DNA from: Streptomyces sp. NBC_00239
GTDB lineage: Bacteria; Actinomycetota; Actinomycetes; Streptomycetales; Streptomycetaceae
Assembly (NCBI RefSeq): GCF_036194065.1
Contig: NZ_CP108095.1
Coordinates: forward strand, 186,001 to 250,000
Direction: 5' to 3'
DNA length: 64,000 nt
The first letter of the stretch is position 1; the number at the start of each line of letters is the position of its first letter. Under the pieces are notes generated by a model. The model was not told where the DNA came from, made no database searches, and saw nothing but the letters and a program-made list of their open reading frames with translations. Positions 18,889 to 34,450 of this stretch are shown in pieces. Position numbers and translations under genes: made by a program.

Positions 18889-20691
18889 GTGCACGTCCTG
18901 CTCGTCGCGAGCGCGTTCAACAGCCTCACCCAGCGGGTCCACGCCGAGCTGCGCGACCGCGGCCACAGCGTCGCGGTGGAACTGGCGCTGCCGCGGACCG
19001 ACCTCGCCGCCGCGGTCCGCCGTCACCGGCCGGACCTGCTGGTCGCGCCGATGCTGACGTCCGCCCTGCCCGAGGAGGTGTGGTCCGCCCACACCTGCCT
19101 CATCGTCCACCCCGGCCCGGTCGGCGACCGCGGCCCGTCCTCCCTCGACCGGGCCGTCCAGGAGGGCGCCGCCCGGTGGGGCGTCACCGTGCTCCAGGCC
19201 AACGCGGAGATGGACGCCGGTGACGTGTGGGCCACGGTCGCCTGCCCGGTGCCGGTACCCCCGCAGTCCAAGAGCGCCTGGTACCGCGGGGAGGTCGCCG
19301 ACGCGGCCCTGGAGGCCGTCCTGCTCGCCGTGGACCGCTTCGCCTCCGGCACCTACCTGCCCAGGCCGCAGACCGTGGGCCGGGCCCGGCCCGTGCTGCG
19401 GCAGGAGGACCGCCGGATCGACTGGCGGACGGACGGCACCGAGCGGGTGCTGCGCGTGCTGCGCGCCGCCGACTCCCGGCCGGGCGTGCGCGACGAACTG
19501 CTCGGCGGCACCTGGTACCTGCACGGCGGCCACCCCGAGGACCTGCTGCGCGGCGCGCCGGGCGCACTCCTCGCCACCCGGGCGGGCGCGGTCTGCCGGG
19601 CCACCGCCGACGGGGCCGTGTGGATCCCCGAACTGCGGGCGCACCGGGCGCCCGGGGAGCCGGCCGCCCCCAAGCTCCCCGCCGCGCTCGCCCTCGGCGA
19701 CCGGCTTCCCTCGCTGCCCGAGCTCCCCGCCCCGGCGGACGCCGGCCTCCCGTCCCCGGCGGATGCCGGACCGGGCCCCCGTACCTGGTCCGACATCGGC
19801 TACCGCGAGGAGGGCGGCGCCGGATTCCTGTCGTTCTCGTTCCCCGGCGGCGCGATGGGCACGGACCACTGCCGGCGCCTGCTGGGCGCCTACCGCGCGG
19901 CTTGCGCCCGCCCCACCTCGGTGCTCGTGCTCGGGGGCGGCCGGGACTTCTTCTCCAACGGCATCCACCTCGGCGTCATCGAGGCCGCGGCCGACCCCGC
20001 CGAGGAGTCCTGGGCCAACATCAACGCCATGGACGACCTGGTCGAAGCCGTCCTCACCACGACCGACCGGCTCGTCGTCGCCGCGCTCGGCGGCAACGCG
20101 GCCGCCGGCGGGGCCGTGCTGGCACTCGCCGCCGACGAGGTGTGGTGCCGCTCGGGCGTCGTCCTCAATCCGCACTACCGGCTGATGGGCCTGTACGGCT
20201 CGGAGTTCTGGACGTACACCCTCCCGCGCCGGGTCGGCGCCGCCCGCGCGGAGCGCCTCACCGCCGAGGCGCTGCCGCTGAGCGCCGCGGCGGCCCGGCG
20301 GCTCGGCCTGGCCGACCGTACGCTCGACTGCCCGCCCGCCGAGTTCGCCGGGCGGGCCGCGGCGCTCGCCGCGCAGATCGCCCGGCACCCGGCCACCGCC
20401 TCCCGGATCGCCGTGAAGAAGGCCCGCCGGGAGCTCGACGAGGCACAGCGCCCGCTGGCCGCGTACCGGGCGGCCGAGCTGGACCGGATGCGGCTGACCT
20501 TCTTCGACCCGCAGGCCCCCTACCACGCGCTGCGCCGGGCCTTCGTACGCAAGGAGCGGCCCGGGGCGACCCCGGAGCACCTGACGCGGGCGGTACCGGG
20601 CGGCCGGCTCGGGGCGCGGCCGTCCGCGCGGGGGCGGCCCGTCACTGGACCGGGCGTACAAGACGCGGCGCCGGGCCCCGGCGCCTGTTAG
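18889..20691 (+). CDS. hypX: Hydrogenase maturation factor HypX (CO-ligand synthesis)
   Basis: A 600-residue two-domain protein. The N-terminal half is formyltransferase-like: SAFNSLTQRVHAELRDRGH, then HPGPVGDRGPSSLDRAVQEG with the conserved HPG and Asp region that binds formyl-tetrahydrofolate. The C-terminal half is an enoyl-CoA-hydratase/crotonase fold with VLGGGRDFFSNGIHLGVIEA and ANINAMDDLV, hallmark HypX sequences. In the family the protein turns formyl-THF via formyl-CoA into CO for the active-site iron under aerobic conditions. GTG 18889 was chosen for the GGGAG six bases upstream and because homology starts with HVLLVASAFNS. It leads the hydrogenase block and ends 89 bp before the small-subunit gene. 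Confidence 0.95.
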   Translation: MHVLLVASAFNSLTQRVHAELRDRGHSVAVELALPRTDLAAAVRRHRPDLLVAPMLTSALPEEVWSAHTCLIVHPGPVGDRGPSSLDRAVQEGAARWGVTVLQANAEMDAGDVWATVACPVPVPPQSKSAWYRGEVADAALEAVLLAVDRFASGTYLPRPQTVGRARPVLRQEDRRIDWRTDGTERVLRVLRAADSRPGVRDELLGGTWYLHGGHPEDLLRGAPGALLATRAGAVCRATADGAVWIPELRAHRAPGEPAAPKLPAALALGDRLPSLPELPAPADAGLPSPADAGPGPRTWSDIGYREEGGAGFLSFSFPGGAMGTDHCRRLLGAYRAACARPTSVLVLGGGRDFFSNGIHLGVIEAAADPAEESWANINAMDDLVEAVLTTTDRLVVAALGGNAAAGGAVLALAADEVWCRSGVVLNPHYRLMGLYGSEFWTYTLPRRVGAARAERLTAEALPLSAAAARRLGLADRTLDCPPAEFAGRAAALAAQIARHPATASRIAVKKARRELDEAQRPLAAYRAAELDRMRLTFFDPQAPYHALRRAFVRKERPGATPEHLTRAVPGGRLGARPSARGRPVTGPGVQDAAPGPGAC

Positions 20692-20780
20692 CAAGAAGGG
20701 TGGGGCCGACGCGTCCCAGGCGGTGCCCGGCCGCCGCAGCGGCCCCGCTTCCCGCTCCCCCGTTCCAAGGAGGCATCCGC

Positions 20781-21836
20781 ATGGATGCAGCAACGCCGGA
20801 CCCGGTAGAGGACCCCCTGATCCACATTCTCTGGATCAACGCGGGCCTGAGCTGCGACGGGGACTCCGTGTCCCTGACGGCCGCGATGCAGCCGAGCATC
20901 GAGGAGATCGTGACGGGCACGCTGCCCGGCCTGCCCAGGATCGCCGTGCACTGGCCGCTCATCGACTTCGAGTGCGGTCCGGTCGGCGGCGCGGACACGT
21001 TCATCGAGTGGTTCTTCAAGGGCGAGCGGGGCGAGATCGATCCGTTCGTGCTGGTCGTCGAGGGTTCCGTCCCCAACGAGAAGATCAAGGCCGAGGGGTA
21101 CTGGTGCGGCTTCGGTGACGATCCGGCGACGGGCCAGCCCATCACCACCAGCGAGTGGATCGACCGGCTGGCGCCCAAGGCCCTCGCCGTGGTCGCGATC
21201 GGCACCTGTGCCACGTACGGCGGCATCCACGCGATGGAGGGCAATCCGACGGGCGCGATGGGCGTGCCGGACTACCTGGGCTGGGACTGGAAGTCCCGTG
21301 CCGGGATCCCGATCGTGTGCGTACCGGGCTGTCCGATCCAGCCGGACAACTTCTCGGAGACCCTGACGTACCTGCTGTACCAGGCGGCCGGCTCGGCGCC
21401 GATGATCCCGCTGGACGACAAGCTGCGGCCGACCTGGCTGTTCGGCGCGACCGTCCACGAGGGCTGCGACCGCGCCGGCTATTACGAGCAGGGCCAGTTC
21501 GCCGAGACGTACGACTCCCCCAAGTGCCTGGTGAAGATGGGCTGCTGGGGTCCGGTGGTCAAGTGCAACGTGCCCAAGCGCGGCTGGATGAACGGCATCG
21601 GCGGCTGCCCGAACGTGGGCGGCATCTGCATCGCGTGCACGATGCCCGGCTTCCCCGACAAGTTCATGCCGTTCATGGACGAGCCGCCGGGCGCGAGGGT
21701 CTCCACCAAGGCCATCGGGGCGTACGGCGCGGTGGTCCGCAAGCTCCGGGCGATCACGCTGCACACCGTGGACCAGGAGCCCAAGTGGCGCCACCGCGGC
21801 GACAAGATCACCACCGGCTACCGCCCGCCCTGGTGA
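20781..21836 (+). CDS. hhyS: Group 1h [NiFe]-hydrogenase small subunit
   Basis: A 351-residue Fe-S subunit that carries electrons from the Ni-Fe site. The N-terminal proximal-cluster motif reads SCDGDSVSL: Cys25 is kept but the usual second Cys of CxxC is Asp28, the 3-Cys/1-Asp ligation known from actinobacterial-type (group 1h, formerly group 5) hydrogenases and linked to O2 insensitivity. Other cluster Cys are in GTCATYGG, VPGCPIQPDN, HEGCDRAGYY, KMGCWGPVVKCN and GGCPNVGGICIACTMPGFPDK. There is no twin-arginine signal peptide, as expected for this group. ATG 20781 has AAGGAGG seven bases upstream. Expected role: scavenging atmospheric H2 during starvation or sporulation. Confidence 0.96.
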   Translation: MDAATPDPVEDPLIHILWINAGLSCDGDSVSLTAAMQPSIEEIVTGTLPGLPRIAVHWPLIDFECGPVGGADTFIEWFFKGERGEIDPFVLVVEGSVPNEKIKAEGYWCGFGDDPATGQPITTSEWIDRLAPKALAVVAIGTCATYGGIHAMEGNPTGAMGVPDYLGWDWKSRAGIPIVCVPGCPIQPDNFSETLTYLLYQAAGSAPMIPLDDKLRPTWLFGATVHEGCDRAGYYEQGQFAETYDSPKCLVKMGCWGPVVKCNVPKRGWMNGIGGCPNVGGICIACTMPGFPDKFMPFMDEPPGARVSTKAIGAYGAVVRKLRAITLHTVDQEPKWRHRGDKITTGYRPPW

Positions 21837-21931
21837 CGCGGCCCGGGCACCGCCCCGGCCGCCCGGCACACACCTCCTCCCCCCACCGCGCTGAAGAGCC
21901 GAAGAGCTGAAGAAGGGTCACGGCACACACG

Positions 21932-23716
21932 ATGGAACCGAAGACGAAGGCGGCCGGCGACGGCAGCGGCCTGGTCGAGATGGCCTGGGATCCGATCACC
22001 CGGATCGTGGGCAGTCTCGGCATCCACACGAAGATCGACTTCAAGCAGAAGCGGGTCGCCGAGTGCTACAGCACCTCGTCGGTCTTCCGTGGCTACAGCG
22101 TCTTCATGCGCGGCAAGGACCCGCGCGACGCGCACTTCATCACCAGCCGCATCTGCGGGATCTGCGGCGACAACCACTCCACGTGCTCGGTGTACGCACA
22201 GAACATGGCCTACGGGGTGAAGCCGCCCCACCTCGCCGAATGGATCATCAACCTCGGCGAGTCCGCGGAGTACATGTTCGACCACAACATCTTCCAGGAG
22301 AACCTGGTCGGGGTCGACTACTGCGAGAAGATGGTCCGCGAGACCAACCCCGGGGTCCTGGAGCTCGCCGAGCGGACCGAGGCCCCGCACGCCGGCGACC
22401 ACGGCTACCGCACCATCGCCGACATCATGCGCTCCCTCAACCCCATCGAGGGCGAGTTCTACCGCGAGGCGCTCCAAGTGAGCCGCTACACGCGGGAGAT
22501 GTTCTGCCTGATGGAGGGCCGCCACGTGCACCCCTCCACGCTCTACCCGGGCGGCGTCGGCACCATCGCCTCGGTCCAGCTCTTCACCGACTACATGAGC
22601 CGCCTGATGCGGTACGTGGAGTTCATGAAGAAGGTGGTGCCGCTGCACGACGACCTGTTCGACTTCTTCTACGAGGCCCTGCCCGGCTACGAGGAAGTCG
22701 GCCGCCGGCGCGTGCTGCTGGGCTGCTGGGGCGCGCTCAACGACCCCGAGCACTGCGACTTCACCTACGCCAACATGACCGACTGGGGACGGAAGATGTT
22801 CGTCACCCCGGGCGTGATCGTGGACGGCAAGCTGGTCACCAACGACCTCACCGAGATCAACCTCGGCATCCGCATCCTGCTGGGCAGTTCGTACTACGAC
22901 GACTGGCAGGGCCAGGAGAAGTTCGTCACGCACGACCCGCTCGGCAACCCGGTCGACGCCCGCCACCCCTGGAACCAGCACACCATCCCGGCCCCGCAGA
23001 AGCGGAACTTCGACGACAAGTACAGCTGGGTGATGTCCCCGCGCTGGTTCGACGGCAAGGACCACCTCGCCCTCGACACCGGCGGCGGCCCGATCGCCCG
23101 GCTGTGGTCGACCGCGCTGTCCGGGCTGGTGGACGTCGGCTACGTCAAGGCCACCGGGCACAGCGTCGTCATCAACCTGCCGAAGACCATGACCAAGCCC
23201 GAGAAGCGCTTCGAGTGGACCATCCCGAAGTGGAGCAACGCGCTGGAGCGCAACCGGGCCCGTACCTACTTCCAGGCCTACGCGGCGGGGATCGCGCTGC
23301 ACTGCGCCGAGAAGGGGCTGGCGGAGGTCCGCGCCGGACGCACCCAGACCTGGGAGAAGTTCGAGGTCCCCGACGAGGCGATCGGCGTCGGCTTCACCGA
23401 GGCCGTACGGGGCGTCCTGTCGCACCACATGGTGATCCGCGACGGGAAGATCGCCAACTACCACCCGTATCCGCCGACTCCGTGGAACGCCAGCACCCGC
23501 GACACCTTCGGCACCCCGGGGCCGTACGAGGACGCGGTGCAGAACACCCCGATCTTCGAGGAGAACCCCCCGGAGAACTTCAAGGGCATCGACATCATGC
23601 GGGCGGTGCGCAGCTTCGACCCGTGCCTGCCGTGCGGCGTCCACATGTACGTCGGCGGCGGCAAGACGGTCAAGTCCATGCACGTCCCCACCGGCCTGAG
23701 CGGGCTGGCCGGATGA
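21932..23716 (+). CDS. hhyL: Group 1h [NiFe]-hydrogenase large subunit
   Basis: A 594-residue catalytic subunit. The nickel ligands are visible as RICGICGDNHST (Cys75, Cys78) and DPCLPCGVH (Cys565, Cys568). After His571 a 23-residue tail (MYVGGGKTVK...) remains that the nearby maturation protease presumably removes once nickel is inserted. The N-terminal DPITRIVGSLGIHTKID is the usual start of large subunits. It follows the small subunit by 95 bp and overlaps the NifU-like gene by four bases (ATGA at 23713-23716). Together the two subunits oxidise H2 to protons and electrons, probably feeding the respiratory chain. Confidence 0.96.
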   Translation: MEPKTKAAGDGSGLVEMAWDPITRIVGSLGIHTKIDFKQKRVAECYSTSSVFRGYSVFMRGKDPRDAHFITSRICGICGDNHSTCSVYAQNMAYGVKPPHLAEWIINLGESAEYMFDHNIFQENLVGVDYCEKMVRETNPGVLELAERTEAPHAGDHGYRTIADIMRSLNPIEGEFYREALQVSRYTREMFCLMEGRHVHPSTLYPGGVGTIASVQLFTDYMSRLMRYVEFMKKVVPLHDDLFDFFYEALPGYEEVGRRRVLLGCWGALNDPEHCDFTYANMTDWGRKMFVTPGVIVDGKLVTNDLTEINLGIRILLGSSYYDDWQGQEKFVTHDPLGNPVDARHPWNQHTIPAPQKRNFDDKYSWVMSPRWFDGKDHLALDTGGGPIARLWSTALSGLVDVGYVKATGHSVVINLPKTMTKPEKRFEWTIPKWSNALERNRARTYFQAYAAGIALHCAEKGLAEVRAGRTQTWEKFEVPDEAIGVGFTEAVRGVLSHHMVIRDGKIANYHPYPPTPWNASTRDTFGTPGPYEDAVQNTPIFEENPPENFKGIDIMRAVRSFDPCLPCGVHMYVGGGKTVKSMHVPTGLSGLAG

Positions 23717-24258
23717 GCGCCGCGCACGCGGGCGCCGCGGTGGACGCGCGGCAGGCCGGACACCGGGTGGAGGAGGTCCTCGACCGGATCGCCGCCACGG
23801 GCGACCGGGCGGCCTGCGCGGCCGCCGAGGAACTGGTGCGGGTCCTCATGGAGTTCTACGGGGCCGGCCTCGCGCGGATCACGGACCGGCTCGGCGCGGA
23901 CGGGCTCCGCCCGCTCCTCGACGACGATCTCGTGGCGAGCCTGCTGGCCCTGCACGACCTGCATCCCGAGGACGTACGGGTCCGGATCGGGCGGGCCCTG
24001 GACTGCGCGCCGGATCCGGTGGAACTGCTCGGCTTCGACGCGGAGTCGGGCGTACTGCGGCTGCGGTCCCAGGCCGACACCGGTTGCGGTTGCGGCAGTT
24101 CCGGCGCGTCCCCCCTGCCCGGGGTGCCGCAGAGCGTGGCGGACGCGCTGGCCGCCTTCGCGCCCGAGGTCACCTCCGTGGAGGTGGAGACGGCGGCCCC
24201 GGCCCCGGCCCTGCTCCAGATCGGCACCCGGCCGCACGCCCCGGCACGGGTCCGGTGA
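23713..24258 (+). CDS. NifU-like protein of the hydrogenase operon
   Basis: A 181-residue protein. Residues ~100-165 match the NifU C-terminal scaffold domain: PVELLGFDAESGVLRLRSQ, then TGCGCGSSG in place of the classical CxxCPSS, then VADALAAFAPEVTSVEV. The Cys pair (125, 127) is thus CxC rather than CxxC. The N-terminal 95 residues are helical (VEEVLDRIAATGDRAACAAA, LVRVLMEFYGAGLARI) and resemble no named domain to me. Known group 1h operons contain such a gene; a role in Fe-S cluster delivery to the small subunit is the likely inference. ATG overlaps the large-subunit stop, and its own stop overlaps the next gene. Confidence 0.9.
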   Translation: MSAAHAGAAVDARQAGHRVEEVLDRIAATGDRAACAAAEELVRVLMEFYGAGLARITDRLGADGLRPLLDDDLVASLLALHDLHPEDVRVRIGRALDCAPDPVELLGFDAESGVLRLRSQADTGCGCGSSGASPLPGVPQSVADALAAFAPEVTSVEVETAAPAPALLQIGTRPHAPARVR

Positions 24259-24920
24259 GCGCCCCGGCCCCGGCCGCGCGCGGCCTGCGGCGGTTCGCCG
24301 CCCCGCGCCCGCCCCGCCCGGAGACGTGCGAACTGTGCGGGGTGGCGGTCGCCGAGGACGGCCACCGCCACCTGGTGGAGACCGAACGGCGGGCGCTGGT
24401 CTGCGCCTGCACCGCCTGCGCGCTGCTCTTCGACCGGCCCGGTACGGCCACCGGCCGGTACCGGGCCGTGCCGGACCGGTACCTGTCCGATCCGCAGCGG
24501 CCGCTCGACGACGGCGCCTGGGAGACCCTCCAGATCCCCGTCGGCGTGGCGTTCCTCTTCCGCAACGCCGCACTGGAGCGACTGGTCGCTCTCTACCCCA
24601 GCCCCGCCGGCGCCACCGAGAGCGAGCTCGATCCGGCGACCTGGCACGACGTGCTGGGCGCGGGACGGCTCGCCGCCCTGCTGGAGCCGGACGTGGAGGC
24701 ACTGCTGCTGCACCGCGCGCACGGCCGCACCACCTGCCATCTGGTGCCCATCGACATCTGCTACGAACTGGTGGGACGGATGCGGCTGTTGTGGCAGGGC
24801 TTCGATGGCGGCGCGGAGGCCCGGGACGCACTGCGCGTCTTCTTCGAACGGGTCGAGCGGCGGTCCCGGGCGCTCGCCCCGGCCCCCGGCCCGGACCCGG
24901 TGGAAGCGGGCCGGCCGTGA
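24255..24920 (+). CDS. DUF5947 family hydrogenase-associated protein
   Basis: A 221-residue protein with a zinc-ribbon-like N-terminus: Cys25-x2-Cys28 (TCELCGV) and Cys52-x2-Cys55 (CACTACALLF). The body contains LQIPVGVAFLFRNAALERLV and a C-terminal block with ICYELVGRMRLLWQGFDGG. This matches my memory of DUF5947 proteins that occur only beside actinobacterial hydrogenases. The paired Cys could bind zinc or a rubredoxin-type iron, which would suit an electron carrier or an assembly factor. GTG 24255 overlaps the upstream stop by four bases. Confidence 0.85.
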   Translation: MSAPAPAARGLRRFAAPRPPRPETCELCGVAVAEDGHRHLVETERRALVCACTACALLFDRPGTATGRYRAVPDRYLSDPQRPLDDGAWETLQIPVGVAFLFRNAALERLVALYPSPAGATESELDPATWHDVLGAGRLAALLEPDVEALLLHRAHGRTTCHLVPIDICYELVGRMRLLWQGFDGGAEARDALRVFFERVERRSRALAPAPGPDPVEAGRP

Positions 24921-25609
24921 CGGAGTTCGCCTTCACCTGCACCGGGGTCCGCGCCGACCCGTACGCGGCCGGGCCGACCCTCGTCTTCCGGCTGCGCGTG
25001 ACCGCCTCCCCCGGGATCCGGGTGCACGCCCTCGCGCTGCGCTGCCAGATCCGTGTCGAACCCGCCCGGCGGCGGTACGGGCCGGCCGAAGCGGACGGCC
25101 TGACCGACCTGTTCGGCGCCCGCTCCCGCTGGGGTTCCACGCTCCAGCCGGTGCAGTTCGCGCAGGTCGCGGTGATGGTCGGGAGCTTCACCGGCGAGAC
25201 CGAGACCGACCTGGTGGTGCCGTGCAGCTACGACATGGACATCGCCGCCACCCGGTACTTCGCCGCGCTCCAAGACGGTGAGGTGCCGCTGCTGATGCTC
25301 TTCTCGGGGACCGCGTTCACGGGCGCGGGCGGCTTCGTCGTCGAACCCGTGCCCTGGGACCGCGAGGCCGCGTACCGGATGCCGGTGGCGGTGTGGCGGG
25401 AGATGGTCGAGCAGCACTTCCCCGGCTGCGGCTGGCTGCGGCTGCCCTCCGACACGATGGCCGACCTGCTCGCCTTCCGCTCCCGGCACGCCCTCGCCTC
25501 CTGGGAGGCGACCGTCCGGGCCCTCCTGGACGCGGCCGCGCCGCAGCCGCCGTCGCCCGCGGTACGGCTGGGGGCGGCGGCGCGCGTCACCGAGAGGACG
25601 GCCCCGTGA
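24917..25609 (+). CDS. DUF6084 family hydrogenase-associated protein
   Basis: A 230-residue soluble protein, mostly beta-strand in its first two thirds (FTCTGVRADPYAAGPTLVFR, VHALALRCQIRVEPARRRYG, then LVVPCSYDMDIAATRYFAAL) and ending in helices (MADLLAFRSRHALASWEATV). It matches the DUF6084 type seen in group 1h operons. No Fe-S or metal motif is visible, so a structural or chaperone-like role is more likely than electron transfer. GTG 24917 overlaps the DUF5947 stop by four bases and the next GTG overlaps its own stop, so stoichiometric synthesis is expected. Confidence 0.85.
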   Translation: MTEFAFTCTGVRADPYAAGPTLVFRLRVTASPGIRVHALALRCQIRVEPARRRYGPAEADGLTDLFGARSRWGSTLQPVQFAQVAVMVGSFTGETETDLVVPCSYDMDIAATRYFAALQDGEVPLLMLFSGTAFTGAGGFVVEPVPWDREAAYRMPVAVWREMVEQHFPGCGWLRLPSDTMADLLAFRSRHALASWEATVRALLDAAAPQPPSPAVRLGAAARVTERTAP

Positions 25610-27006
25610 CCGCGACCACCACCACCGCGGGGGACGCCCGTTTCGCCACGGCCCGGCAGGTGGCCGACGCCGTCCTCTTCGAGGGGTACGTCCTCTACCC
25701 GTACCGGGCGTCCGCGGTGAAGAACCGGATGCGCTGGCAGTTCGGCGTGCTCACACCGCCCGCCTGGGCGCCCGCGCACGGGGAGCACTCCTTCCAGCGC
25801 ACCGAGATCCTGATGGAGCCCCGGGGCGCGGCGACGCTGACCCTGGAGCTGCGCTTCCTGCACGCCCAGCGGCGCACGGTCCAACAGGCCCACCCCGACG
25901 GCACGTTCGAGGACGTCGCCGAACTGCACCTGCCCGACCGGGTGCTCGTACCCTGGGACGAGGGCGTCGAGGAGCGGATCGAGGTGTCCGTCGACGTGGC
26001 CGAACTGGCCGCGGCCGGCGCCTCGTTCCCCTTCACCCGTGCCGCCCGCGAGGAGGCCGAGCCGGTCCTCGGGGAAGGCGGCCGGACGGTGGGCCGCCTG
26101 GTGCGGCGTACCGAGGAGGTCTGCGGGGTGCTGCGGCTCTCGGCCGCCGAACTCGACGGCCCCTACCGGGTGGTGAAGCTCACCGCGGTCGTCGAGAACA
26201 CCGGTCCGTGGGACCCGGACGGGGACCTCGCGACGCGCGAGGAGGCACTGCCCCGCTCGCTGGTCGCCGCGCACCTCCTCCTGGGGCTGAGCGCCGGGTC
26301 GTTCCTGTCGATGACCGACCCGCCCGAGTGGGCCCGGGGCGCGGTCGGGACGTGCGAGAACCGGCACACCTGGCCCGTGCTTGCGGGCGAGCCCGGCCGC
26401 GCGGACGTGGTGCTGTCCTCCCCCATCATCCTGGAGGACCACCCGGCCATCGCACCCGAGAGCGCCGGCGCCATGTACGACGCCACGGAGATCGACGAGA
26501 TCCTCGCCCTGCGCACCGCCGCCCTCACCGAGGAGGAGAAACGGGAGGCCCGCGGGACGGATCCGCGCGCGGCCGCCGTGATCGACCTGGCCGACACCAT
26601 GCCGCCCGAGGTGCTGGAGCGCCTGCACGGCGCCGTCCGCGGCCTGCGCGAGATCACCGGCGAGGCCGACCCGGACGCGGGGGCGCTGTTCCGGCCCGAG
26701 ACCCCCTGGTGGGACCCGGCGGGCGCCGACCCCCAGGACCCGGCCCCGGACCACGTCCTGGTCGGCGGCGTCCGGGTGGGCGCCGGCAGCCGCGTGGTCC
26801 TGCGCCCCGGACTGCGGCGCACCGACGCCCAGGACCTCTTCCTCCAAGGCCGGTCCGCCCAGGTGGAGGCCGTCCTGCACGACGTCGACGGGGGCGTGCA
26901 CCTCGCGGTGACCGTGGACGGCGACCCGGGCGCGGACATCCGCCGCGAGCAGGGCAGGTTCCTCTACTTCCAGCCGGACGAGGTCACCCCCGCGGAGCAG
27001 GCATGA
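25606..27006 (+). CDS. Unrecognised 466-residue hydrogenase-operon protein
   Basis: I do not recognise a named domain. Visible features: an N-terminal stretch ADAVLFEGYVLYPYRASAVK with NRMRWQFGVLTPPAW, a beta-rich middle, a conserved-looking block LVAAHLLLGLSAGSFLSMTD with PPEWARGAVGTCENRHTWPV, and a C-terminal DHVLVGGVRVGAGSRVVLRP followed by a FLYFQPDEV end. The sequence is acidic, with no signal peptide and no Cys cluster. Four-base overlaps link it to the genes on both sides. The strict position between DUF6084 and the protease suggests a dedicated maturation, scaffold or membrane-docking function for the hydrogenase. Confidence 0.85.
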   Translation: MTATTTTAGDARFATARQVADAVLFEGYVLYPYRASAVKNRMRWQFGVLTPPAWAPAHGEHSFQRTEILMEPRGAATLTLELRFLHAQRRTVQQAHPDGTFEDVAELHLPDRVLVPWDEGVEERIEVSVDVAELAAAGASFPFTRAAREEAEPVLGEGGRTVGRLVRRTEEVCGVLRLSAAELDGPYRVVKLTAVVENTGPWDPDGDLATREEALPRSLVAAHLLLGLSAGSFLSMTDPPEWARGAVGTCENRHTWPVLAGEPGRADVVLSSPIILEDHPAIAPESAGAMYDATEIDEILALRTAALTEEEKREARGTDPRAAAVIDLADTMPPEVLERLHGAVRGLREITGEADPDAGALFRPETPWWDPAGADPQDPAPDHVLVGGVRVGAGSRVVLRPGLRRTDAQDLFLQGRSAQVEAVLHDVDGGVHLAVTVDGDPGADIRREQGRFLYFQPDEVTPAEQA

Positions 27007-27545
27007 ACGGCCGGACCCTGATCGCCGGCATCGGCAACGTCTTCCTCGGCGACGACGGCTTCGGCGTGGAGACGCTGCGGGCCCTGTCCGCGCACCCGCT
27101 GCCGCAGGGCGTACAGGCGGTGGACTTCGGGGTGCGCGGGGTCCACCTCGCCTACCAGCTGCTCGACGGGTACGACACCGTCGTCCTCGTCGACGCCACC
27201 GCGCGCGGCGGGGCCCCCGGCACCCTGTACCTGATCGAGGTCGGCGCGGGCGACACGGGGAGCGCGCCGGGCGGCGGCACCCTCGACGGCCACGACATGT
27301 CGCCCGCCACCGTGCTCGCCCTGCTGGACACCCTGTGCGCCGGGACCGGCACCGCGCCCCCCGGGCGCGTCCTGGTCCTCGGCTGCGAACCCGACTGCGT
27401 CGAGGAGGGCATCGGGCTGAGCCCGCCGGTGGCCGCCGCGGTCCCGGAAGCCGTACGGGCCCTCCTGGAGCTGCTCGCGGACGAGGAGCCGCCGGGGCCC
27501 GGCGTGCACGAACCGGCCCGCCGTGAACTGAGGAGAACCCCTTGA
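27003..27545 (+). CDS. Hydrogenase maturation protease
   Basis: A 180-residue nickel-dependent endopeptidase of the HyaD/HycI family that trims the large-subunit C-terminus. Metal ligands are visible: the N-terminal GIGNVFLGDDGFGVE (acidic ligand equivalent to Glu16 of HybD at the DDGFG position), Asp in VVLVDATARGG, and His in LDGHDMSPATVLALL. It ends with a Pro/Glu-rich tail. ATG 27003 overlaps the previous stop by four bases. Its substrate should be the 23-residue tail after His571 of the large subunit. Confidence 0.93.
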   Translation: MNGRTLIAGIGNVFLGDDGFGVETLRALSAHPLPQGVQAVDFGVRGVHLAYQLLDGYDTVVLVDATARGGAPGTLYLIEVGAGDTGSAPGGGTLDGHDMSPATVLALLDTLCAGTGTAPPGRVLVLGCEPDCVEEGIGLSPPVAAAVPEAVRALLELLADEEPPGPGVHEPARRELRRTP

Positions 27546-27591
27546 CGAACGCCGTGCGCAAACCCCCGAGCAATCCCCCGAGGAGAACGAC

Positions 27592-27696
27592 ATGAAGAAG
27601 GCCGTCATCTGCGCAGCCGCGGCCGTGGCCATGGCCGCCGTGCTCCGGCAGGTGCTCCCCGACATCCAGCGCTACCTGCGCATCCGCAGGATGTGA
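27592..27696 (+). CDS. 34-residue DUF6893-type single-helix peptide
   Basis: A very short gene: MKKAVICAAAAVAMAAVLRQ, then a tail with PDIQRYLRIRRM. The layout (KK, about 17 hydrophobic residues, a basic C-terminus) fits a single membrane-spanning peptide of the DUF6893 type common in Streptomyces. ATG 27592 has GAGGAG eight bases upstream. It lies inside the hydrogenase block, between the protease and hypA, so it might tether the complex to the membrane or be a small extra subunit; this is inference. A still smaller frame starting with TTG 27542 (17 codons, overlapping the protease stop) may couple its translation. Confidence 0.7.
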   Translation: MKKAVICAAAAVAMAAVLRQVLPDIQRYLRIRRM

Positions 27697-27809
27697 CTCC
27701 CGCAGCGCCCCGCCGCCCGAATGGCGTACGGGGCGCACGGCACGTCGGCGTGCCCGACCTCCGGGCCCCCCTCCGGCCGGTGTAATGAGCCCCGGCAGGA
27801 CGGAGACCG

Positions 27810-28205
27810 ATGCACGAGATGTCGATCGCCATGGCCGTCGTGGGCCAGGTGGAAGAGGCGGCGCCGGACGGCGCGGCGGGGATCGTCCGCCGAGTGGAGC
27901 TCCAGGTAGGCGAGTTGGCGGGAGTGGTCCCGGACTCCCTCGCCTTCTGTTTCGAACTCGCCTGCGCCGGAACGGTACTGGAGGGTGCGGAACTCGTCAT
28001 CGCGCCCGTGCCGGCCCGGGCACACTGCGGCGCCTGCTCGGGTGAATGGGCCCCGGGCATGCCCCCCGACCTGTGCTGCCCGGCCTGCGGGAAGGCCACG
28101 GAGGTCGCGCTGCGGTCGGGACGCGAGCTACGCATTCTCACCGTGACCTGGGAGGACGCTCCGGAAGCGGCCCCCTGCCGGGCACCGATCTCCGAGGAGG
28201 CCTGA
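27810..28205 (+). CDS. hypA: Hydrogenase nickel metallochaperone HypA
   Basis: A 131-residue nickel and zinc protein. The N-terminal MHEMSIA carries the nickel-binding His2; the zinc finger is C-x2-C (HCGACSG) and C-x2-C (CCPACGK). Family length is 110-130. With HypB it delivers nickel to the immature large subunit. ATG 27810 follows a GACGGAGACCG sequence; the gene begins 113 bp after the short peptide gene, so an internal promoter is possible. HypB starts four bases after its stop. Confidence 0.96.
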   Translation: MHEMSIAMAVVGQVEEAAPDGAAGIVRRVELQVGELAGVVPDSLAFCFELACAGTVLEGAELVIAPVPARAHCGACSGEWAPGMPPDLCCPACGKATEVALRSGRELRILTVTWEDAPEAAPCRAPISEEA

Positions 28206-28208
28206 ACC

Positions 28209-29048
28209 ATGTGCCGAGTGGTCGACCTGCAACAGGCGGTACTCGCCAAGAACGACGGGGCCGCGCGGGCCCTGCGCACCGAACTCACCGCCCGCGGCAC
28301 GACGGTCGTCAACCTGCTGTCCAGCCCGGGCAGCGGCAAGACCGCCCTGCTGGAACGGGAACTGCTGCTCGCCCGCGAGCAGGGGGTGGCCGTGGCCGCC
28401 CTCACCGCGGACCTGGCCACCGAGAACGACGCCGTGCGGCTGGCCCGTTCGGGGGCCCTGGTCAAGCAGGTCCTCACCGACGGCCTCTGCCACCTGGAGG
28501 CCTCGATGCTGGCCCGCCACCTGGACGGCTGGCTTCCCGAGGAGACGCGGCTGCTGTTCGTGGAGAACGTGGGCAATCTGGTCTGCCCCGCGTCCTACGA
28601 CCTCGGGGAGTCGCTGCGCGTGGTCCTCGCTTCGGTGACCGAGGGCGAGGACAAGCCGCTGAAGTATCCGACCGCCTTCGGGCCGGCCCACCTGGTGGTG
28701 GTCACCAAGACCGACATCGCGCGGGCCGTCGACTTCGACGAGGCGGCCTTCCGCGCCAACGTCCAGCGGGTCAATCCGGGCGTGGAGGTGGTGCTCACCT
28801 CGGCCCGCAGCGGTGACGGCGTGGGGCTCCTGCTGGACCGGGCGCGGGCGATCGGGAACGGCGCGGCGGCACACGTCCCGGTGATGGCCCGGCCGCAGGA
28901 CGACACCCGCGGACCCGGCCCCGGGCACGCGCACCCCCACGTGCACGACCACGACCACGACCACGACCACGGTCCGGGACACACGCACGACGAGGGGCAC
29001 GTGCACCACCACGGGCAGCCCGGCCCCACCGTGGCGCAGACCCGCTGA
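28209..29048 (+). CDS. hypB: Hydrogenase nickel-incorporation GTPase HypB, His tail at C-terminus
   Basis: A 279-residue SIMIBI GTPase. The start MCRVVDLQQAVL is the usual HypB beginning, the P-loop is LSSPGSGKTALL (residues 37-48), VENVGNLVCPASYDLGE carries the metal-site Cys, and VVTKTDIA the guanine-specific motif. Odd: the His-rich nickel-storage stretch, normally near the N-terminus, forms a C-terminal tail here (residues 239-269, 14 His within 31 residues, including HDHDHDHDH). It is followed by a short Pro/Gln end. The stop overlaps the hypF start by one base. GTP hydrolysis should drive nickel transfer together with HypA. Confidence 0.96.
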   Translation: MCRVVDLQQAVLAKNDGAARALRTELTARGTTVVNLLSSPGSGKTALLERELLLAREQGVAVAALTADLATENDAVRLARSGALVKQVLTDGLCHLEASMLARHLDGWLPEETRLLFVENVGNLVCPASYDLGESLRVVLASVTEGEDKPLKYPTAFGPAHLVVVTKTDIARAVDFDEAAFRANVQRVNPGVEVVLTSARSGDGVGLLLDRARAIGNGAAAHVPVMARPQDDTRGPGPGHAHPHVHDHDHDHDHGPGHTHDEGHVHHHGQPGPTVAQTR

Positions 29049-31513
29049 TGGAGTCCGTGGAGCGCCGCCGGGTCACCGTCCACGGCGTCGTGCAAGGCGT
29101 CGGCTTCCGGCCGTACGTCTACGCCCGCGCCACCGGACTGGGGCTGGCCGGGCACGTCACCAACACTCCGGAAGGCGTGGTGACCGAGGTCGAGGGCGCG
29201 CCCGCCGCAGTGTCGGCGTTCTGCGAGCGGCTCGCGGCCGACGCGCCCCCGCTGGCCGTCGTCGACGCGGTGGACCACTGCGCGGTCCCGGTGGTCGGCG
29301 GCGGCGGATTCTCGATCATCCCCTCGCGCGGCGGCGGACCCGCCCGGACCCTGGTCTCCCCGGACACCGCCACCTGCGCCGCCTGCCTGGCCGAACTGGC
29401 GGATCCCGCCGACCGGCGCCACCGGCACCCCTTCATCACGTGCACGCACTGCGGGCCCCGCTTCACGATCGTCACCGGGCTGCCCTACGACCGCGCCCAC
29501 ACCACCATGGCCGGCTTCCCGATGTGCCCCGACTGCGCCCGCGAGTACGCCGATCCCGCCGACCGCCGCTTCCATGCCCAGCCGGTGGCCTGCCCCGCCT
29601 GCGGCCCCCGGCTGCGGCTGCTCGCCGCGGTGCGCACCGCGCCCGGCACGCCGTACGGCGGCACGCCCGCGACCCCGTACACGATCCCGTACGGACCGCC
29701 GGACGGGCCGCCGTACGAGGTCGGCGGCGCGGACCCGGTGGCGGCGGCGCGCCGGATGCTGGCCGGGGGCGCGATCCTGGCGGTCAAGGGGCTCGGCGGT
29801 TACCACCTGGCGTGCGACGCCGCCCGGCCGGCGGCCGTGGCGGAACTGCGCCGCCGCAAGTCCCGCGGCGACAAGCCCTTCGCCGTGATGGTCCGCGACC
29901 TCGCGGAGGCGGAGCGCCTGGCGCACCTCGGTCCGGAGGAGCGCGCCTTGCTCACCGGCAGCGTCCGGCCCATCGTGCTGCTCCGGCGGCGCGGCGACGC
30001 CCGGGGCCCGGGAGCGCCGGCCGAGGAGGTCGCCCCGCGCAGCCCCGACCTCGGCGTCATGCTCCCGTACACGCCGGTGCACCACCTGCTGTTCGGGCTG
30101 CCCGGCGATCCGCCCGGGCCCCGGCTGCTCGTCATGACCAGCGGGAATCTCGCGGGCGAGCCCATCGTGACCGACGAGGCCGAAGCCCTGGAGCGACTCG
30201 CCGGGATCGCCGACGGCTGGCTCACGCACGACCGCCCCATCCACGTGCCGTGCGACGACTCGGTGGTGCGGGTGTGCGACGGCGAGACCCTGCCGGTCCG
30301 GCGCTCGCGCGGCTATGCCCCGCTGCCGGTCGCCCTGCCGCTGCCGGTTCCGCCCACGCTGGCCACCGGGGGCGACCTCAAGAACGCGCTGTGCCTCGGC
30401 GAGGGCCGGCAGGCCTGGCTGTCGGCGCACATCGGCGACATGGACGATCTCGCCACCCAGGACGCCTTCGAGCGGGCCGGCCGGCAGCTGGAGTCCATCA
30501 CCGGCGTCCGGCCCGAGCACCTGGCCTCCGACCGGCATCCCGGCTACCGGTCGGGCCGGTGGGCGGCCCGCAACGCCGGTGGCCGTCCGCTGGTGCGCGT
30601 GCAGCACCACCACGCGCACATCGCGGCGGCGATGGCCGAGCACGGTCTGGACGCGGGCCGGCGGGTCATCGGAGTCGCCTTCGACGGCACCGGCTACGGC
30701 GACGACGGCGCGGTGTGGGGCGGTGAAGTGCTCCTCGCCGACTACGCCGGGTTCACCCGCTTCGCCCATCTCGCGTACGTCCCGCTGCCGGGTGGCGACG
30801 CCGCCGTGCGGCGGCCGTACCGCATGGCCCTGTCGCACCTGCGGGCGGCGGGCCTCCCGTGGGATCCGGACCTGCCGTGCACCGCCGACTGCCCGGATGA
30901 CGAACTACGCGTACTGGCGCGCCAGTTGGATCGCGGGCTGAACTGCGTGCCGACGTCCAGCATGGGCAGGCTCTTCGACGCGGTCTCCTCGCTGGCGGGC
31001 ATCTGCCACCGTTCCGGCTACGAGGCCCAGGCGGCGATGGAGCTGGAGAACGCAGCACTGGGGGCCGCCGTACGCGACGACCCCGTCGGCTACGCCTTCC
31101 GCCTGTACTCCCCGGGCCCCGGCTCGTCCGGCCCGGTCACCGCGGACCCGGCGCCGCTGCTGGCGGCGGCGGTGGCCGACCTGCGGGCGGGCGTGGACCC
31201 GTCGGTGATCGCGGCCCGCTTCCACGCCGGCACCACCGCGCTCGTCGGCCGGCTGTGCGCGCTGGCGCGCGACCGGCACGGGCTCGACACGGTGGTCCTG
31301 ACCGGCGGGGTCTTCGCCAACACGCTGCTGTCCTCGGCCTGCGCCCGCACCCTGCGCGAGCTCGGGTTCACGGTACTGCGGCACCGCAGGGTGCCGCCGA
31401 ACGACGGCGGGCTGGCACTCGGCCAGCTCGTGGTGGCCGCCGCTCGCGAGGTCACCGACCCACCACAGCGAGGAGAGGCCCATGTGCCTGGCGGTACCCG
31501 GCAGAGTGCTTGA
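29048..31513 (+). CDS. hypF: Carbamoyltransferase HypF (CN-ligand synthesis)
   Basis: An 821-residue multidomain enzyme that activates carbamoyl phosphate and passes the carbamoyl group to HypE. Domains in order: acylphosphatase-like (residues ~5-92, VHGVVQGVGFRPYVYARA), two zinc fingers (CAACLAEL...CTHCGPRF and CPDCAREY...CPACGPRL), YrdC-like nucleotide-binding domain (~220-400, with KSRGDKPFAVMVRD) and Kae1/TobZ-like domain with HHHAHIAAAMAEHG and GVAFDGTGYGDDG. Odd: a Pro/Tyr/Gly-rich insertion (PYGGTPATPYTIPYGPPDG) lies between the zinc-finger and YrdC parts. The last 32 bases overlap hypC. Confidence 0.96.
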   Translation: MESVERRRVTVHGVVQGVGFRPYVYARATGLGLAGHVTNTPEGVVTEVEGAPAAVSAFCERLAADAPPLAVVDAVDHCAVPVVGGGGFSIIPSRGGGPARTLVSPDTATCAACLAELADPADRRHRHPFITCTHCGPRFTIVTGLPYDRAHTTMAGFPMCPDCAREYADPADRRFHAQPVACPACGPRLRLLAAVRTAPGTPYGGTPATPYTIPYGPPDGPPYEVGGADPVAAARRMLAGGAILAVKGLGGYHLACDAARPAAVAELRRRKSRGDKPFAVMVRDLAEAERLAHLGPEERALLTGSVRPIVLLRRRGDARGPGAPAEEVAPRSPDLGVMLPYTPVHHLLFGLPGDPPGPRLLVMTSGNLAGEPIVTDEAEALERLAGIADGWLTHDRPIHVPCDDSVVRVCDGETLPVRRSRGYAPLPVALPLPVPPTLATGGDLKNALCLGEGRQAWLSAHIGDMDDLATQDAFERAGRQLESITGVRPEHLASDRHPGYRSGRWAARNAGGRPLVRVQHHHAHIAAAMAEHGLDAGRRVIGVAFDGTGYGDDGAVWGGEVLLADYAGFTRFAHLAYVPLPGGDAAVRRPYRMALSHLRAAGLPWDPDLPCTADCPDDELRVLARQLDRGLNCVPTSSMGRLFDAVSSLAGICHRSGYEAQAAMELENAALGAAVRDDPVGYAFRLYSPGPGSSGPVTADPAPLLAAAVADLRAGVDPSVIAARFHAGTTALVGRLCALARDRHGLDTVVLTGGVFANTLLSSACARTLRELGFTVLRHRRVPPNDGGLALGQLVVAAAREVTDPPQRGEAHVPGGTRQSA

Positions 31514-31769
31514 CATCGCGGAGCGGGACGGCACCCGGATGGCGACCGTGGACTTCGGCGGCGTGCAGAAGGAGGTGTGCCTGGAGTACCTGCCGGACCT
31601 ACGGGTCGGCGAGTACGCCATCGTCCACGTGGGGTTCGCCCTGCAGCGGCTGGACGAGGAGTCCGCCAAGCAGACCCTGGAGCTGTTCGCGGAACTCGGG
31701 ATGCTGCAAGAGGAGTTCGGCGACCCGTGGGAACTGGCCGCGGGGCCCGACGAAGGAGCAGGGGAATGA
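31482..31769 (+). CDS. hypC: Hydrogenase chaperone HypC
   Basis: A 95-residue OB-fold chaperone starting [12 protein letters not shown]; Cys2 is the essential iron ligand used to hold the Fe(CN)2CO moiety with HypD. The core [17 protein letters not shown], then [19 protein letters not shown] is standard. AGGAGAGG precedes the ATG inside the end of hypF, so the 32-base overlap is deliberate coupling rather than mis-annotation. Its stop overlaps the hypD start by four bases. Confidence 0.96.
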
Positions 31770-32908
31770 AGTACATCGACGAATTCCAGGACCCGGCGCT
31801 CGCCCGCCGGCTCCTGGACGAGATCCACGCCACGGTGACCCGCCCGTGGGCGCTGATGGAGGTGTGCGGCGGCCAGACCCACACCATCATCCGGCACGGC
31901 ATCGACCAACTCCTGCCCGATCAGGTGGAGTTGATCCACGGGCCGGGCTGCCCGGTGTGCGTCACCCCGCTGGAGGTCATCGACAAGGCGCTGGAGATCG
32001 CCTCCCGGCCGGGCGTCATCTTCTGCTCCTTCGGGGACATGCTCCGGGTCCCGGGGACCGGCCGCGACCTGTTCCGGGTGCGCAGCGAGGGCGGTGACGT
32101 CCGGGTGGTCTACTCGCCGCTCGACGCGCTGACGATCGCCCGGCAGAACCCGGACCGGGAAGTCGTCTTCTTCGGCATCGGCTTCGAAACCACCGCCCCG
32201 CCGAACGCCATGACGGTCCATCAGGCCAAGAAGCTGGGCATCCGCAACTTCAGCCTGCTGGTGTCGCACGTACGGGTTCCCCCGGCGATCGAGGCCATCA
32301 TGCTGTCGCCGAGCTGCCGGGTGCAGGGCTTCCTCGCCGCCGGGCACGTGTGCAGCGTCATGGGCGTGGCGGAGTACCCGGAGCTCGCGGCGCGCCACCG
32401 GGTGCCGATCGTCGTCACGGGATTCGAGCCGCTGGACATCCTCGAAGGGGTCCGGCGGACCGTGCGCCAGCTCGAGCGCGGCGAGCACACCGTGGAGAAC
32501 GCGTACGCGCGGGCCGTCCGCCCGGAGGGCAACCCGGCCGCGCTCGCCATGCTGGCGGACGTCTTCGAGGTCACCGACCGGGCCTGGCGCGGCATCGGGG
32601 TGATCCCCGGCAGCGGCTGGCGACTGGCGGACCGCTACCGCGAGTTCGATGCCGAGCACCGCTTCCAGGTCACCGGGATCACCACGCAGGAGCCCGCCGA
32701 GTGCCGCAGCGGCGAAGTGCTCCAGGGGCTCCTCAAGCCGAACGAGTGCGCGGCCTTCGGCACCGTCTGCACCCCGCGCACGCCGCTCGGCGCCACGATG
32801 GTCTCCAGCGAGGGGGCCTGCGCCGCGTACTACCTCTACCGCCGGCTCGACCTCCAGGCCGCGCCCGCCGCTCCCACGACGCCGCTGGAGGCGAGCCCCG
32901 TTGGCTGA
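31766..32908 (+). CDS. hypD: Hydrogenase Fe-S maturation scaffold HypD
   Basis: A 380-residue Fe-S protein on which the Fe(CN)2CO group is assembled. Conserved motifs: [16 protein letters not shown] with the catalytic Cys, [36 protein letters not shown], and the C-terminal Fe-S Cys in [20 protein letters not shown] and EGACAAYY. Length and order agree with the family. Overlap with hypC upstream and with the TTG of hypE downstream keeps HypC, D and E in balance. Confidence 0.97.
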
Positions 32909-33965
32909 GACCGCACCGCTGGACGTCGGCTCCTGGACCTGTCCGGCCCCGCTGCGCGACCACCCCCGGGTGGTCATGGGGCACGGCGGGGGTGGCGCCC
33001 TGTCCGCCGAACTCGTCGAGCACCTCTTCATGCCCGCCTTCGGCGGCCCCGCGCTGGCCCAGCTCGGGGACGCCGCCGCGCTCTCGCTGGGCGGCGTCCG
33101 GCTGGCGTTCTCCACGGACTCGTACGTGGTGCGCCCGTTGTTCTTCCCGGGCGGCTGCATCGGCGACCTCGCGGTCAACGGCACGGTCAACGACCTGGCG
33201 ATGAGCGGGGCCCGGCCGGCCTACCTCTCCTGCGGGTTCATCCTGGAGGAGGGCGTCGAGCTGTCCGTCGTGTCGCGGGTGGCCCGGGCGATGGGCGAGG
33301 CCGCCCGGGCCGCCGGCGTGGAGGTGGCCACCGGGGACACCAAGGTCGTCGAGAGCGGCCACGGGGACGGGATCTACGTCAACACCGCGGGCATCGGCCT
33401 CATCCCCGACGGGGTGGACCTGCGCCCGCAGCGGGTCGTGCCCGGCGACGTGGTGATCGTCAGCGGTGACATCGGGCTGCACGGCGTGGCGATCATGAGC
33501 GTGCGGGAGGGCCTGGAGTTCGGGGTGGACGTCGAGAGCGACTGCGCGCCGCTGGGCGGCCTCGTGCAGAGCATGCTCGCGGTCACCCCGGACCTGCACG
33601 TCCTGCGCGACCCCACCCGCGGGGGTCTGGCCGCCTCCCTCAACGAGATCGCGGCGGGCTCCGGCACCGGCGTCGTGATCCACGAGGCCCGGATCCCCGT
33701 ACCCCCGGCGGTTGCAAATGCCTGTTCGATCCTCGGTCTGGACCCGCTGTACGTGGCCAACGAGGGCAAGCTCGTCGCCTTCGTACCTCGCGAGCACGCC
33801 GACGCCGTACTCGACGCGATGCGGGCGCACCCCCTGGGCCGCGGCGCGACCGTGATCGGCGAGACCGTCGAGGCCCACCCGGGCATGGTGGTGGCGCGCA
33901 CCCGGCTGGGTGGCACCCGCGTGGTCGACCTGCCGCTGGGGGAGCAACTCCCGCGGATCTGCTGA
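32901..33965 (+). CDS. hypE: Carbamoyl-dehydratase HypE
   Basis: A 354-residue PurM/ThiL-like ATPase that dehydrates the carbamoyl group on its C-terminal Cys to cyanide. Visible: [18 protein letters not shown] near the N-terminus, [57 protein letters not shown] and the universal C-terminus PRIC ending at the stop. TTG 32901 was chosen since it overlaps the hypD stop, has GGAGG about ten bases upstream, and no ATG precedes the family-conserved part. It closes the hydrogenase block. Confidence 0.96.
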
Positions 33966-34450
33966 GGACGCACGCCGTCCCGCGCGCCCGGTCCGGCGGG
34001 GGCCGCGAGGTCCCCGCCGTGGGTCAAGCGGCTCTGGGGCGGGTATCCCGTGAGACCACGACGGCCCCGGTGCGCCGGGCAGGCGCCGGACCCCTCCGTC
34101 GCAGGAAGCCAGCGGGTCGAGCGAGACGGTGATCGTCGCGAACCGTTCCCTGGACGCGGTGACCCGAGTCGACCTGTGGTTCCGCGACATCGACGGGCTG
34201 CGACCGGCCGAGTACGAGAGAGTGGACGGCGAGGACGTCGGCGTTGCGCCCGCCCGGCAGGAACCGGGCGAGCACTGCGAAAGCTGACCGCGAGCCGCGC
34301 CTGGCCGATCGCGGGCCGAGCCCCGGCCGAGCACGAGCGCCGAGCACGAGCGTCGAGCGCGGTTCCGCCGACTGGCGCCCGGAGTGCACGCCCCTCCCGG
34401 GCCGCGCAGGGTGGTGCACCCACCCCCTTCGCATCGGAGGTCCGACGTCG
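33966..34450 (+). other. Intergenic stretch with a weak terminator and a short gene fragment
   Basis: An 8-bp stem (CGGCGGGG at 33993-34000 with CCCCGCCG at 34011-34018) 28 bp past the hypE stop could end the hydrogenase transcript. Farther on, a forward frame at 34129-34287 starting GTG encodes VIVANRSLDAVTRVDLWFRD, then GLRPAEYERVDGED; it looks protein-like, has no convincing ribosome site and is probably a fragment. Nothing else is supported. Confidence 0.4.

Follow-up and report, generated by a model that had tools for sequence, protein, structure and literature searches.

The window analyzed here, a 64,000-nucleotide stretch of the 9.3-Mb genome of Streptomyces sp. NBC_00239, carries a hydrogenase locus whose 15 genes fill positions 18889 to 33965, every one of them on the + strand. 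The genes run from hypX through the small and large subunits of a [NiFe]-hydrogenase (hhyS and hhyL), several accessory genes, and a maturation protease to hypABFCDE; between the protease and hypA lies an open reading frame (ORF) for a 34-amino-acid (aa) peptide of the family DUF6893. This order had been proposed in a first-pass annotation of the DNA, and ORFs, Pfam matches, and gene order bear it out, including a complete maturation set adjoining the structural genes. That annotation included the peptide in its gene list and made no inference about it. As a member of a known hydrogenase kind the locus is unexceptional; the overlooked peptide adds to its interest. Overall, we are confident that the locus encodes a group 1h hydrogenase with the DUF6893 micropeptide as a component.

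In a phmmer search of all PDB sequences, 5AA5 was the best match by far for both subunits, with 554 bits for HhyS (next chain, 153 bits) and 1088 bits for HhyL (next chain, 163 bits). This entry is the Cupriavidus necator enzyme (HofK and HofG), which has been termed a group 1h hydrogenase (PMC10017518; papers are cited by PubMed Central identifier, from the portions of their text that were available). The annotated replacement of CxxC by Cys25-x2-Asp28 in the small subunit is correct: the sequence reads C25-D26-G27-D28, and CxxD recurs in 124/128 small subunits of the fetched loci. Substitution of Asp for one proximal-cluster Cys in group 1h is reportedly known from the work on 5AA5. The other four loci (L150 to L153) have CxxC small subunits and large subunits 41 to 44% identical, show no match to the NifU-like protein, DUF5947, DUF6084, or the micropeptide, and perhaps represent another group 1 subclass. 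HhyL contains RICGICGDNHSTC and DPCLPCGVH, with 23 residues beyond the latter. Scanning the genome with PF00374 revealed one hydrogenase large subunit, its match split in two pieces, and a third, sub-cut-off match that we take to be complex I, leaving Hhy as the only hydrogenase found in this genome. The Hhy of Streptomyces avermitilis is likewise the sole hydrogenase of its host (PMC6883350). Judged from these comparisons, membership in group 1h is close to certain, and a role in scavenging trace H2 would carry over from S. avermitilis by analogy (PMC4767420). As a side observation, public records for five loci (L154, L155, L156, L158, and L159) label the small subunit "hydrogenase expression protein HypE"; by match or position it is HhyS.

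The window micropeptide, MKKAVICAAAAVAMAAVLRQVLPDIQRYLRIRRM, is a member of PF21833 (DUF6893; 51.8 bits against a cut-off of 24.6), a family of uncharacterised function. In a genus sample of 295 genomes, HhyL matches at 1e-3 were present in 155 (146 strong) and DUF6893 matches in 94. In 91 of these 94, the peptide lay 3751 to 6282 bases away from the hhyL match, measured between low coordinates; of the remaining three, G111 contains no more than a fragment of HhyL, and the matches of G259 and G250 are sub-cut-off pieces. When Streptomyces genomes were ranked by HhyL identity into clades A (90 to 97%, the window's own), A2 (88 to 89%), B (~81%), and C (70 to 74%), Pfam DUF6893 was present in 68/68, 7/8, 7/8, and 9/62 genomes, respectively (Fisher P = 2e-34, uncorrected for kinship). 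In a phylum sample of 296 genomes, HhyL matches at 1e-100 came from 39, and in 27 of these identity was ≥65%. DUF6893 matched 25 genomes of this sample, 19 of which have HhyL at 1e-100; the peptide is on the hhyL contig in 15 of the 19 and, in G376, G377, G436, and G481, on other contigs with accessory or hyp genes. In G434, G458, G462, and G524, at least one copy is accompanied on its contig by hyp or accessory genes, and the matches of G485 and G490 are pieces. None of 14 control genomes had a DUF6893 match.

A profile iterated from ten copies of the micropeptide was applied to 122 group 1h loci, all with distinct hhyL genes; 12 loci with <6.5 kb past hhyL were treated as cut and counted only when a hit was present. 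The micropeptide was found in 110/122 loci, 107 times below an E value of 0.001. In all 110, the best copy was on the hhyL strand, and its upstream neighbor was the protease, the 466-aa gene, or the DUF5947 gene. The copies of C. necator, S. fungicidicus, Kitasatospora, and Mycobacterium intracellulare are missing from the annotation tables (PLSDB tables, which are incomplete). A literature search, with most subscription papers beyond its coverage, returned no paper for DUF6893 or PF21833 and no link between DUF6893 and hydrogenase; among the matches listed, no title or abstract opening connects Hhy with a micropeptide.

Several results weigh against this linkage. Of the 27 phylum genomes whose HhyL reaches ≥65% identity, 18 have a DUF6893 match and 9 show none; of the 12 whose HhyL is at 36 to 45%, one has a match and 11 show none. 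Three of the 110 profile matches are weak (E values of 0.016 to 0.035), and the profile found no micropeptide in 12/122 loci, comprising nine clade C loci (L157 included), L148, L158, and L168. Clade C mostly carries a diverged form; the L118 copy, at 20.2 bits, falls below the 24.6 cut-off. Copies in L171 and L173, both from G458, are on contigs without hydrogenase genes. In seven of the nine clade C misses, inspection by eye placed after DUF5947 a diverged relative whose helix and tail are similar. On balance, a genomic linkage is shown, and the DUF6893 micropeptide is very probably a genuine component of Hhy. Some copies are noted separately: that of L171 is near an acyl-CoA dehydrogenase gene and that of L173 near Nramp and DtxR-type genes; L139 has a second copy near a histidine kinase gene, upstream of the Hhy locus on the opposite strand; and L142 has two copies on the same strand within the locus, ~0.9 kb apart. 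In the Hhy locus L168 (G092), neither the end of the 466-aa protein nor the protease nor the micropeptide gave a match. L170 (G434:C1:2939500-2958500) looks like a decayed actinomycete Hhy locus, in which hypA, hypB, an hhyS piece, the micropeptide, the protease, and other hyp genes are left and no hhyL match was found.

The sequence of the micropeptide was examined in 119 copies (116 distinct). Conservation in this set is somewhat overstated, because the copies were chosen by the profile and required to end at a stop codon; the start codon was set by choice. An ATG start is present in 104/119 copies, and 113/119 are 32 to 40 aa long. All 119 have Arg-Tyr at positions -8/-7 and a terminal Met, followed by TGA, TAG, or TAA. 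The best 19-aa hydropathy window reached ≥1.6 in 109/119 copies and ≥1.9 in 83/119. A value of ≥1.9 was attained by one of 116 466-aa proteins, by one of 115 proteases, and by no small subunit, large subunit, NifU-like, DUF5947, or DUF6084 protein; in the window, the micropeptide alone of the 15 proteins exceeds 1.9. Net charge is more positive on the C-terminal side in 105/115 copies, and the tail is therefore predicted by the positive-inside rule to be cytoplasmic. GC content by codon position is 0.69/0.45/0.92. The pooled ratio of nonsynonymous to synonymous differences (pN/pS) is 0.86, at near-saturating divergence, and 0.53 in the last 14 codons; these values were weighed against the peptide, and pN/pS taken alone gives weak support. 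In the window the micropeptide lies 113 bases ahead of hypA, and protease-micropeptide-hypA is the commonest arrangement (91/110 loci), as would suit an ORF that stands outside the enzyme and controls hypABFCDE as a leader or by translational coupling. However, 14/110 loci have hypF, hypC, or the protease as the following gene, and the amino acid tail is constant across TGA, TAG, and TAA stops and is the same in C. necator, which makes such a leader very unlikely.

Several steps of a mechanism can be proposed from what is established in the family. HypABCDEF and HypX would assemble the Ni-Fe(CN)2CO site, the protease would cut HhyL after DPCLPCGVH, and HhySL would oxidise trace H2 with its proximal cluster held by three Cys and one Asp. 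By hydropathy, HhySL has no membrane helix. The N-terminal helix of the micropeptide would hold the enzyme at the inner face of the membrane, with the basic, conserved tail LPDIxRYLxxRxM in the cytoplasm, and electrons would exit HhyS via the metal-type site of DUF5947 to menaquinone. There is a precedent for the problem: the group 1h subunits of Methylacidiphilum fumariolicum have no helix and no signal peptide, yet they are membrane-associated, the Km (Michaelis constant) rises from 140 to 300 nM upon isolation, and the redox partner is called unknown (PMC7174314). Because it combines one membrane helix with a conserved tail, the micropeptide is the best anchor candidate, and a single-helix peptide dedicated to the system, present in C. 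necator and in most of the actinobacterial loci examined, would be the simplest candidate here. It would have escaped annotation because it has only ~34 codons. A function as membrane anchor, in putative contact with HhySL or DUF5947, is nearly an even call, falling a little short of it. We suggest, more tentatively, that the tail docks a soluble HhySL-DUF5947 complex so that electrons reach menaquinone, and that the affinity is set by this coupling and not by the catalytic subunits alone. In Huc, a dedicated extra subunit, the HucM membrane stalk, connects atmospheric H2 oxidation to menaquinone (PMC13098282); Huc belongs to a different hydrogenase group (2a).

The main difficulty for anchoring is C. 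necator, which has the micropeptide although its enzyme, purified after homologous expression, is reported to be cytoplasmic and of low affinity, unlike what is proposed here (PMC7174314). In addition, two other membrane proteins were reported in the M. fumariolicum operon (PMC7174314), and contact between micropeptide and hydrogenase is a prediction. The micropeptide might instead serve Hhy biogenesis elsewhere, for example with a nickel transporter or the protease. The constant upstream neighborhood of protease, 466-aa gene, or DUF5947 would fit such a role, as would one stray copy ~1.6 kb from an Nramp gene; however, none of the 15 locus genes encodes a transporter by Pfam and gene order, and nothing links the tail to any maturation factor. 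We regard this alternative to anchoring as somewhat unlikely.

The layout of the locus is given in Table 1. Neighboring genes had been described as mostly joined by 4-base overlaps; such overlaps do occur, but at only 6/14 junctions. Intergenic gaps of 89 and 95 bases precede hhyS and hhyL, and gaps of 46 and 113 bases flank the micropeptide. These gaps are compatible with the separate hypX and two polycistronic units of S. avermitilis, compared by published description (PMC4767420). The three Pfam domains of HypX are ordered as a formyl-transferase-like N terminus and then a hydratase-like C terminus, from which HypX is assigned to the putative aerobic CO source type. The 181-aa NifU-like protein and the 466-aa protein matched nothing in Pfam or NCBIfam at an E value of 0.01. 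Names of the hyp genes follow gene order and matches in annotated loci: HypA, HypF, HypC, HypD, and HypE have 42 to 54% matches in the annotated C. necator stretch, and HypB has no match there but matches annotated Streptomyces and Kitasatospora records.

Table 1. Features of the Hhy locus, in window positions
Feature	Position	Strand	Evidence and remarks
hypX	18889..20691	+	600 aa, GTG start; Pfam ECH_1 3e-19, Formyl_trans_N 5e-8, Formyl_trans_C 2e-7
hhyS, small subunit	20781..21836	+	C25xxD28 replaces CxxC; Pfam NiFe small subunit; phmmer against 5AA5 chain A, E value 2e-165
hhyL, large subunit	21932..23716	+	Ligand motifs RICGICGDNHSTC and DPCLPCGVH; Pfam NiFe large subunit; phmmer against 5AA5 chain C
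Short HhyE (NifU-like, 181 aa)	23713..24258	+	Without Nfu CxxC and C-terminal double-CxxC domain (sequence, alignment)
DUF5947 protein	24255..24920	+	Pfam 2e-72; C25 C28 H37 H39 C50 C52 C55
DUF6084 protein	24917..25609	+	Pfam 2e-95
466-aa core protein of 1h locus, familyless	25606..27006	+	Order kept in C. necator and other loci
Hydrogenase maturation protease	27003..27545	+	HycI 5e-12, TIGR00072 2e-34
DUF6893 micropeptide, 34 aa	27592..27696	+	Pfam 8e-14; one predicted membrane helix; tail LPDIQRYLRIRRM-stop
hypA	27810..28205	+	ORF, homologues in loci
hypB	28209..29048	+	ORF, homologues in loci
hypF	29048..31513	+	Named so in C. necator and Streptomyces records; ORF, homologues in loci
hypC	31482..31769	+	Homologues in loci
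hypD	31766..32908	+	Homologues in loci
hypE, start uncertain	~32901..33965	+	Homologues in loci

Directly past hypE, a long + strand ORF (34244 to 36199) looks hydrophobic by eye. The C. necator H16 locus (HofKG, 5AA5) on pHG1 shares with the window the order small subunit-large subunit-NifU-like-DUF5947-DUF6084-unknown-protease, the CxxD motif, an HhyE without CxxC, and an unannotated 33-aa DUF6893 micropeptide. Its small and large subunits are 68% and 78% identical to those of the window; no hypX match was found in the stretch examined, and its hyp genes are from another lineage.

The gene after hhyL had been called NifU-like; the gene is present, but the CxxC of the NifU domain is absent, with GCGCG near its place (sequence and alignment). 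The protein ends at 181 aa, before the C-terminal double-CxxC domain. In Mycobacterium smegmatis, whose Hhy is also of group 1h, HhyE carries both the NifU CxxC and the C-terminal double CxxC, is essential for Hhy activity, and was proposed as the electron acceptor; truncated HhyE forms were noted, and the PHG067 homologue, also described there, was named as an alternative acceptor (PMC6883350). The long form was also seen in M. intracellulare (L159). That essentiality, together with the HhyE gene in the window, would favor HhyE as the iron-sulfur electron acceptor here as well. However, the window HhyE has neither the CxxC motif nor the C-terminal domain and would therefore carry no electrons via CxxC-bound clusters, and when its own genome was searched with nothing but the C-terminal domain, a single weak match (22 bits) came up, leaving this role highly improbable. 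Among 123 fetched loci with distinct hhyL genes, HhyE had no CxxC in 100, all three in 21, and one in 2 (L134, truncated by a contig end, and L148, an intermediate); misread ORF starts in a few loci (e.g., L035 and L042) affect lengths and leave CxxC counts unaffected. In 15 of 151 matching genus genomes, the listed match extends to at least residue 299 of the 305-aa long HhyE. The short form is present in most Hhy+ Streptomyces of the sample, and the tree of the small and large subunits (S+L) requires at least four changes for it. Carriers by name include S. griseoflavus (L098) and S. cattleyicolor (L157), and short-HhyE strains such as these reportedly take up atmospheric H2.

Next to HhyE, the DUF5947 residues listed in Table 1 were kept in 40/40 aligned proteins, and the motif was present in 117/118, the exception being a 25-aa frame (L051). 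DUF5947 occurs in 49/101 genus genomes (taken as G000 to G100), namely, all 48 that are Hhy+ plus G096, which has an HhyL fragment. By pHG1 gene order, it is probably the homologue of C. necator PHG067. Its metal-type residues suggest a possible electron relay, which we put forward cautiously, on the doubtful side of even; zinc in the site is equally open. Two points stand against the proposed mechanism: a DUF5947 fold search gave no firm match, and loss of HhyE in M. smegmatis is not compensated by an artificial acceptor (PMC6883350). Because of the latter result, HhyE may be an assembly factor. The literature search returned no paper on DUF5947 with hydrogenase, again with most subscription papers beyond its coverage.

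The Hhy locus is modular, and exchange of its parts is seen in trees. The S+L tree had 76 rows (31 of the 80 loci L034 to L113 were offered), and the hypFCD tree had 51, loci being omitted unless their hypF, hypC, and hypD were all closed and of fitting length. The approximately unbiased (AU) comparison used 25 rows and excluded L140, which is not a streptomycete and, on a very long branch, stood beside streptomycetes in the 51-row hyp tree; the groups tested were defined after the identity pattern and trees were known. L001 to L033, which are short stretches, were dropped from all counts, and L150 to L153 from trees and micropeptide counts. In the 25-row hypFCD tree, Streptomycetaceae A, B, and C were united (support 100, starred), whereas the S+L tree joined C to L146/L147 (100, starred), separate from A and B (97, starred). 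The hyp data reject C with L146/L147 (AU P = 1.5e-35), and the S+L data reject the groupings A+B+C and A+C (AU P = 8e-37 and 1e-43).

The core from the small subunit through NifU-like, DUF5947, DUF6084, and 466-aa genes to the protease keeps a single order in C. necator, Methylocystis, and most loci laid out. The hyp genes are elsewhere or on the opposite strand in many loci, and in 3/4 clade C loci laid out they are on the opposite strand; the 466-aa gene stands first in 3/4 of these. HypX was found in 42 of the 101 genus genomes, and 8/48 Hhy+ Streptomyces genomes had no whole-genome HypX match; in at least two more, hypX is far from hhyL (~200 kb in G085 and ~7 Mb in G062). In S. avermitilis, hypX is monocistronic, transcribed separately, and noted as not always present (PMC4767420). 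Modularity thus follows from the conflicting trees, the absent or unlinked HypX, and the monocistronic hypX.

The first-pass annotation had read the locus as one transfer unit holding everything needed, HypX included. All genes here are adjacent and co-directional, and loci are found on very large plasmids in Streptomyces, Kitasatospora, Embleya, Streptantibioticus, Cupriavidus, Methylocystis, and Mycobacterium (12 plasmid records at >60% identity, three being second records of the same strain), so that whole-locus transfer is possible. In addition, hhyL is in the outer quarter of genome length in 46/53 near-complete Streptomyces genomes (sizes rounded), and the outer parts of Streptomyces genomes undergo frequent exchange. 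Nevertheless, the conflict between hypFCD and S+L trees (AU P from 1.5e-35 to 1e-43), the missing or unlinked HypX in part of the Hhy+ genomes, and the strand reversal of the clade C hyp genes make a single unit quite unlikely; it is contradicted for the family, although recent whole-locus moves may have occurred inside clade A. Two genomes are noted for multiple matches: in G191:C14, two Hhy loci, one of clade A and the other of clade C, share a contig at a distance of ~136 kb, and G273 has four HhyL matches.

Among the sinks for atmospheric H2, soil is described as the most important (PMC4767420). How an anchorless hydrogenase becomes membrane-bound, and why affinity depends on it, is a stated open question (PMC7174314), and whether HhyE or the PHG067 homologue accepts the electrons is likewise unsettled (PMC6883350). 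The short HhyE of most Hhy+ Streptomyces is a natural experiment on the acceptor question. If the micropeptide is indeed the anchor, a small gene would couple the hydrogenase to the membrane and thereby set its affinity for atmospheric H2.

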